NCBI GenBank assembly: GCA_016215705.1
Contig: JACRIR010000162.1
Coordinates: forward strand, 1-12,950
Direction: 5' to 3'
DNA length: 12,950 nt
Source of the DNA: Candidatus Poribacteria bacterium
Lineage (GTDB): Bacteria > Abyssobacteria > SURF-5
Shown here: in pieces, positions 2,021 to 3,716 of the stretch
How positions within the stretch are numbered: position 1 is the stretch's first letter
Layout: each line of letters opens with the position of its first letter
Made by a program: the position numbers and the translations under genes
The notes under the pieces: model-generated
The model's database searches: none
Told to the model about the DNA's origin: nothing
The model's input: only the letters and a program-made list of their open reading frames with translations

Positions 2021-2089
2021 TCGAATCACGGTTCAGTCTCCCCGAGACCCAGAATTCTTGGGAAAAGGAATCCTGCAAAGGAGGCAAAT

Positions 2090-2554
2090 ATGGCAAACAC
2101 ACCCAAGGTCGGGGAAAAAGCCCCTGCTTTTGAATTGCCGGATTCGGCGGGAAGCAAGCGCACACTCGACGAGTTGCTGGCGACGAGCAATGTAATGCTT
2201 GTGTTTTTCCGAGGGCTTTGGTGACTGTTTTGCCGCCTTCAGTTGAAGGGTCTCAGAAGACGCTTCGGACAATTTCAGCAGGCCGGCGCACAAATAGTCA
2301 CTATCAGCGCCGATCCTGTCGATGACCTGCAAAAATATGTGAGCGGTAATGCCGTTCCACTTATTATGCTGAGTGATGCAGAGCGCACAGTAATAAAGCG
2401 GTACGATGTCTACAACCCATCCGAACGCGGCGGAGTGGCGATACCGGCCATCTTCATCATCGACAAATCAGGCATCGTCAGATTTGCGCACGTCGAGCGC
2501 AAGGTGGTCCGCGTGCGGAACAAGACACTGCTCGAAGAAGCTAAGAAGCTGTAA
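2090..2554 (+). CDS. Selenocysteine-containing peroxiredoxin (AhpC/TSA family), UGA read through at codon 45
   Basis: Reads as a 154-residue thioredoxin-fold peroxiredoxin if the in-frame TGA at 2222-2224 is decoded as selenocysteine (U45). A strong SD, AAAGGAGG at 2077-2084, sits 5 bases before ATG 2090. The 44 codons before the TGA (PKVGEKAPAFELPDSAG, then VMLVFFRGLW) and the 109 after it (LFCRLQLKGL, then VTISADP, then IPAIFIIDKSGIVRFAHVE) are both typical AhpC/TSA sequence and join without frame change. The TGA replaces exactly the peroxidatic Cys of the common motif RGxWCPFCRxQL, giving W-U-L-F-C with C48 retained as the likely resolving residue. Role: reduction of hydroperoxides using a thiol partner, cytoplasmic (no signal peptide). 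A hairpin with GU in its loop follows at SECIS distance. A nonsense mutation of a Cys codon is the alternative, but the preserved downstream frame and the hairpin argue against decay. Conventional gene calling would leave only a fragment starting near 2243. Confidence 0.85.
2225..2256 (+). promoter_or_regulatory. Bacterial SECIS-like hairpin for the peroxiredoxin UGA
   Basis: Immediately after the TGA, CCTTC (2236-2240) pairs with GAAGG (2245-2249) around the tetraloop AGTT (2241-2244). The loop begins 16 bases after the TGA and carries the GU dinucleotide (2242-2243) that SelB recognises in bacterial SECIS elements. Bacterial elements lie inside the coding region with the apical loop roughly 16-37 bases beyond the UGA, so the spacing sits at the short limit. 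CTG 2225-2227 can pair with CAG 2254-2256 as a weak lower stem. Recognition by SelB is inferred. Confidence 0.65.
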
Positions 2555-2712: not shown

Positions 2713-2865
2713 ATGGCAGAAAACCGCAAAGAACAACGCCGCAAGGGCGAACGCCGGAAAGACATAGCGTCGGCAAAAACATACCTTGGCATGGAGCGGC
2801 GGATGTTTGAGCGCAGAATGTCCGAGAGGAGACGTTCTAGCTTCGCCTATTTTTCCCCCAAGTGA
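2713..2865 (+). CDS. Small Arg-rich basic protein, 50 residues, unknown function
   Basis: ATG 2713 is preceded by AGAGGAGGAA (2701-2710), a near-perfect SD, and the frame ends at TGA 2863-2865. The product has 12 Arg and 5 Lys in 50 residues, against 7 acidic residues. Residues 27-40 are a three-fold M-x-E-R-R repeat (MERR, MFERR, MSERR), likely a charged helix with arginines on a recurring face. It has no cysteine, membrane segment or signal peptide. A good promoter upstream (2630-2658) and a perfect 11-bp terminator hairpin downstream (2918-2944) make it a complete single-gene transcription unit, the main reason to believe it. It could bind nucleic acid or an acidic partner, but no family was recognised and no function is claimed. 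Confidence 0.65.
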   Translation: MAENRKEQRRKGERRKDIASAKTYLGMERRMFERRMSERRRSSFAYFSPK

Positions 2866-3275: not shown

Positions 3276-3716
3276 ATGGCAAATACGATCAACAATGCCG
3301 GAAGGGGCGCTGCAGGACCGGGAAGCGCTTCAAGGATTGGGGCCACGAAGCCTCCAAAGCGCTACGTGGGGCAGAAGAATCTCCTCAATGACGGGATTCA
3401 AAAACCCAGCGGGGAAGAGGAAAAGTATTTTGTGAGAGACGACTTGATGAAACTCCGGAAATTCGAGGAGGAACGAAAAGTCCGCATCGAAACCGAGGAA
3501 AAGGAGCATGCCCGGCAAATCCACTACCGTAAATGCCCGAAATGCTACGGCGACCTCGTGGAAACAATCTTCAAGAAGAAGGTCAAAATCGACAAATGCG
3601 TGGAATGCAACGGAGTATGGCTCGATAACGGCGAACTGGAAATCCTCGCCGGACACGAGGAAAGTTTCCTCACAAGCTTTCTCTCACATTTGATTGGCCG
3701 CGGGAAGAGCATTTAA
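3276..3716 (+). CDS. zf-TFIIB domain zinc-ribbon protein
   Basis: A 146-residue protein starting at ATG 3276 with SD GGGAGGGG at 3262-3269. Residues 1-45 are low-complexity (Gly, Ala, Ser, Lys) and probably disordered. Residues 46-84 form a charged helix, probably a coiled coil, beginning EEEKYFVRDD. Residues 87-122 are a zinc ribbon with Cys pairs C87/C90 (CPKC) and C108/C111 (CVECNGVWLDNGELE), the signature of the zf-TFIIB family (Pfam PF13453). A short hydrophobic helix (FLTSFLSHLIG) ends the protein. Such proteins are common in bacteria and uncharacterised; Zn2+ binding is well supported by the four cysteines, while nucleic-acid or protein binding is only inferred from the fold. It stands alone, between repeat-rich gaps, so context adds nothing about its job. 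Confidence 0.88.
   Translation: MANTINNAGRGAAGPGSASRIGATKPPKRYVGQKNLLNDGIQKPSGEEEKYFVRDDLMKLRKFEEERKVRIETEEKEHARQIHYRKCPKCYGDLVETIFKKKVKIDKCVECNGVWLDNGELEILAGHEESFLTSFLSHLIGRGKSI

Follow-up and report, generated by a model that had tools for sequence, protein, structure and literature searches.

A gene interrupted by an in-frame TGA, located at nt 2090–2554 (+) of the window (the whole 12,950-nt stretch of DNA analysed), very probably encodes a thioredoxin-fold thiol:disulfide oxidoreductase of the AhpC/TSA type, possessing a UxxC active site with selenocysteine (Sec) inserted at the UGA in a SelB-dependent manner. In the genome G000 (5.47 Mb, 92% complete), the window corresponds to contig C85. 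If the TGA is read as a residue, nt 2090–2554 form one AhpC/TSA-domain frame of 154 aa plus stop, with the translation MANTPKVGEKAPAFELPDSAGSKRTLDELLATSNVMLVFFRGLW-U-LFCRLQLKGLRRRF...EEAKKL, in which this codon, the 45th, is the sole internal TGA. The match to Pfam AhpC-TSA (PF00578) extended over residues 7–132 and thus spanned the TGA (104.5 bits, cut-off 26). The preliminary description, which regarded the two halves around nt 2222–2224 as one AhpC/TSA protein, is therefore confirmed at nt 2090–2554. The features of this region are as follows.

nt 2077–2084, plus strand: Shine-Dalgarno motif (AAAGGAGG) located 5 nt ahead of the ATG, as seen in the sequence itself

nt 2090–2554, plus strand: AhpC/TSA-domain gene for a predicted Prx-like selenoprotein with UxxC, 154 aa followed by a stop

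nt 2222–2224, plus strand: in-frame UGA, predicted to encode Sec at residue 45, where UxxC begins; the G002 orthologue has it too

nt 2228–2258, plus strand: predicted bSECIS stem-loop, apical part identical in G002

nt 2228–2232/2254–2258, plus strand: lower stem of the bSECIS

nt 2236–2240/2245–2249, plus strand: upper stem of the bSECIS

nt 2241–2244, plus strand: apical loop AGUU of the bSECIS

nt 2231–2233, plus strand: codon for Cys48, the partner position in UxxC, aligned with the peroxidatic residue of peroxiredoxins

nt 2444–2446, plus strand: Pro119 codon, position of the thioredoxin cis-Pro and of Arg in peroxiredoxins (interpretation from PMC2757866)

No N-terminal signal peptide was apparent by eye in the UxxC gene product, which is therefore probably cytoplasmic. 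A single-sequence structure prediction of the 154-aa product gave a pLDDT of 47, too poor for use.

That TGA 2222–2224 encodes selenocysteine is strongly supported, in part by comparison with a relative. The phylum sample comprised three genomes of an uncultured lineage (G000, G001, and G002). The orthologue in G002, which belongs to another genus of the same family, shared 67% protein identity and possessed a TGA at the same codon with no indel, while G001 contained only distant relatives of the UxxC protein and a scan of genome contigs gave one distant relative only. Downstream of the TGA, dN was 0.20 and dS 1.71 between G000 and G002, and the ratio of about 0.12 indicates that purifying selection acts on the codons after the TGA. 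Synonymous change was lower in the ten codons following the UGA (3 of 10 versus 49 of 90 elsewhere), as expected, although the difference was not significant (p 0.13). Downstream of the gene, at nt 3276–3716 (+), a gene for a TFIIB-type zinc-ribbon protein was observed, which is kept beside the orthologue in G002 with 65% identity. On the sequence evidence, this is a confirmed selenoprotein gene, and one that standard gene callers would break in two or miss.

The preliminary description had implied a host possessing SelA, SelB, SelC, and SelD, and predicted selA, selB, selC, and selD were all found in G000. The genes selA (580 bits, cut-off 268) and selB (371 bits, cut-off 242) were adjacent on contig C228, selD (391 bits, cut-off 125) had its own in-frame TGA (U-A-C-K), and a tRNA-Sec with the anticodon tca (UCA) was found at 68 bits (gathering score 47). 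Because this machinery is present together with TGA-interrupted genes at canonical Sec places, G000 almost certainly uses Sec, with the UxxC gene being one of at least five Sec genes. Another of these is selD, whose product has U at UxxK (GGUACK; G000:C134:6943-7869, L010), and the alpha subunit of formate dehydrogenase, fdhA, has U at CARLUHSP (G000:C259:10566-12557, L094; 869 bits). Two TlpA/ResA-like genes, with in-frame TGAs at AGUNSC (L102, G000:C145:32805-33152) and AGUKPC (L101, G000:C176:3720-4064), possess strong hairpins of the bSECIS type (GUU loop, -11 kcal/mol) and are further selenoproteins of this genome. Both selA and selB were found in all three genomes of the phylum sample. 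The complete Sec trait, including five or more Sec genes, can be recorded for this uncultured lineage, in which three genomes were examined. In the wider comparison, selA was above the cut-off in 23 of 26 genomes carrying a sampled U45 or U48 homologue versus 64 of the remaining 166 genomes in the search (odds ratio 12, p 2e-6). Three genomes (G032, G074, and G191) had U genes but no selA match, possibly due to genome incompleteness.

Shortly downstream of the UGA, the predicted hairpin CCUUC[AGUU]GAAGG was observed, the loop beginning 16 nt after the UGA in G000 and in the G002 orthologue alike. The lower stem around it was also kept in both, the 34-nt folds having energies of -7.5 (G000) and -8.0 (G002) kcal/mol. 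Published values for bSECIS elements are a loop of 3–9 nt, a stem of 4–16 bp, a G in the first two loop positions, a distance of 16–37 nt from the UGA, and an MFE of at most -7.5 kcal/mol (PMC13188914). The window hairpin, with a loop of 4 nt beginning with AG, an upper stem of 5 bp, a spacing of 16 nt, and energies of -7.5 and -8.9 kcal/mol for the 34-nt and 38-nt folds, respectively, lies within these values, at their limit for energy and spacing. It was the weakest of the G000 Sec set (-4.6 kcal/mol for the apical hairpin, with a codon-shuffle fraction of 0.09); taken alone, its folding energy showed no significant excess over dinucleotide shuffles, and longer stretches around it can adopt other folds. 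The loops in the other Sec genes of G000 were GUU, GUU, GGUCU, and GUU, with G always in the first position. Among the homologues, such a hairpin occurred at the same place in 25 of 26 U45 genes, with medians of -7.7 kcal/mol for the energy and 0.02 for the codon-shuffle fraction, but was mostly absent from homologues with Cys or Thr/Ser at column 45 (p about 7e-9 for the difference). The hairpin of L036, CCTGC[AGTT]GCAGG, matched that of the window in register and loop.

The position of the Sec residue within the fold was located by alignment to solved peroxiredoxins (AhpE Rv2238c and archaeal Bcp), in which C48 fell on the peroxidatic Cys and U45 on the T/S of the T/SxxC motif. Among 41 TGA-bearing homologues examined, in-frame TGAs were found at two columns only, column 45 in 26 genes and column 48 in the 15 others. 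The former encode UxxC, UxxS, and one UxxU, while the latter are mostly TxxU, i.e. Sec-peroxiredoxins. Active sites with two in-frame TGAs (UxxU) or with UxxS were seen, in the same family, in L064 (G049) and in L061 and L082 (G040, G036). As anticipated in the preliminary description, Cys was found opposite U45 in homologues, namely the CxxC proteins L029, L037, L044, and L046. An independent mark is the beta-3 position, which is occupied by cis-Pro in thioredoxins and by Arg in peroxiredoxins (PMC2757866). At this column (119), Pro was present in 20 of 20 UxxC or UxxS proteins and Arg in 15 of 15 TxxC or TxxU proteins that the motif could score, and the window protein has Pro (P119). Because the column alignment and Pro119 agree, U45 is assigned to the N-terminal position of a thioredoxin-type CxxC, as the probable attacking residue, with C48 as its partner. 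Columns 45 versus 48, together with Pro or Arg at 119, provide a simple rule separating thiol-disulfide UxxC selenoproteins from Sec-peroxiredoxins having the same Pfam domain.

These results bear on the reading proposed in the preliminary description, namely a one-subunit peroxidase in which U45 would be the peroxidatic residue and C48 would resolve it. The protein does match AhpC-TSA, and reaction with peroxide, as seen in many selenol enzymes, is conceivable for a Sec in place of the N-terminal Cys. However, both the solved peroxiredoxins and the TxxU selenoproteins place the peroxidatic residue at column 48, where C48 itself lies, and the conserved Arg of peroxiredoxins is replaced by Pro119, as in Trx/CMP proteins (PMC2757866), so that this reading is unlikely and was rejected. 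The gene thus stands as that of a selenoprotein, but not as a peroxiredoxin with a peroxidatic U45. The Leu following Sec, formerly considered distinctive in place of Pro, loses this significance, as P, G, K, T, D, I, H, and L all occur after U in the homologues. There is a slight chance that the U-L-F-C site, in which Sec stands between Trp and Leu, adapts the enzyme of this lineage to a distinct partner or permits a selenol peroxidase mechanism from the thioredoxin-type Cys position; we know of no description of such a mechanism for AhpC/TSA proteins.

The TGA is one base from TGT or TGC and could thus have arisen by nonsense mutation of a gene with CxxC or through a sequencing or assembly error, but the TGA common to the orthologue from another genus, the low dN/dS after it, the Sec machinery, and the matching hairpin make such an origin extremely improbable. 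On the basis of the orthologue TGA, dN/dS, and the neighbour conserved in G002, a pseudogene, a sequencing error, or a binning accident is excluded for practical purposes. Equally hard to credit is a split into two independent products, an N-terminal one of 44 aa and a C-terminal one of 103 aa translated anew from TTG 2243, where a mechanical ORF does begin. The AhpC-TSA domain spans the break, the C-terminal fragment would lack both UxxC and the initial strands, and TTG 2243 corresponds to the conserved Leu of an RLQL motif. The pseudogene and two-gene readings were accordingly rejected, leaving the UxxC thiol:disulfide oxidoreductase as the preferred interpretation.

A family with these properties has been described, the Prx-like thiol:disulfide oxidoreductases with UxxC/UxxU (PF00578; representative WP_010940744.1; PMC13188914 Table 1), called "Prx-like" in PMC1088965 and PMC1794560 and "Prx-like 1", with 225 Sec members, in PMC2398784. 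The family is defined by the UGA at the N-terminal position of UxxC, as opposed to the TxxU of Sec-Prx (PMC1088965). Its testable features, the UxxC position of the UGA as well as selA, selB, selD, and tRNA-Sec in the host, were all found here, and therefore the sequence fits membership. The window protein has in common with the family the Pfam domain, UxxC at the same place, a downstream bSECIS, and a distant homology to Prx combined with a thioredoxin-like motif. It differs in the Leu after Sec (ULFC), as compared with the published description of the family, and in its host, from an uncultured lineage with three genomes examined. Thus, the family was already known, and what is new is one further member in a phylum represented by three genomes. 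SelL itself possesses UxxU. The SelL-related family (NCBIfam NF040769) was the best NCBIfam match and has a Prx-like redox domain too, but the window protein has one Sec only and its 65.6 bits were below the curated cut-off of 120, so that membership was rejected. Sec-peroxiredoxins (TxxU, PF00578; PMC13188914; NCBIfam NF040737 PrxU) share the AhpC/TSA fold and the use of Sec, but their Sec lies three residues further on (column 48) and their cis-Pro column holds Arg. Against PrxU, the window protein scored 45.5 bits (cut-off 270). Membership among the peroxiredoxins, T/SxxC or TxxU, was likewise rejected, with U45 at the Thr/Ser position and Pro119 instead of Arg.

The function of the product is likely thiol-disulfide exchange, judged from the active site W-U45-L-F-C48. 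Computation shows the reading frame, the conserved UGA, the Sec machinery, the hairpin, and where U45 lies relative to peroxiredoxins, whereas the incorporation of Sec, the steps of catalysis, and the nature of the substrate are inferred. In the inferred scheme, SelB and Sec-tRNA(UCA) would bind the hairpin just 3′ of the UGA, leading to insertion of selenocysteine. The U45 selenolate, at the N-terminus of the active-site helix, would be the likely nucleophile attacking a disulfide or related substrate; C48 would then resolve the mixed selenenyl-sulfide, giving an internal U45-C48 bond that may be reduced by thioredoxin or a similar donor.

The neighbouring genes, encoding a leucine/glutamate-type dehydrogenase upstream and the zinc-ribbon protein downstream, gave no hint of the substrate or donor, and promoter and terminator scans added nothing. 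At nt 2713–2865 (+) of the window, a 50-aa Arg-rich ORF (MAENRKEQRRKGERRKD...) having no Pfam match was observed, preceded by a good Shine-Dalgarno sequence.
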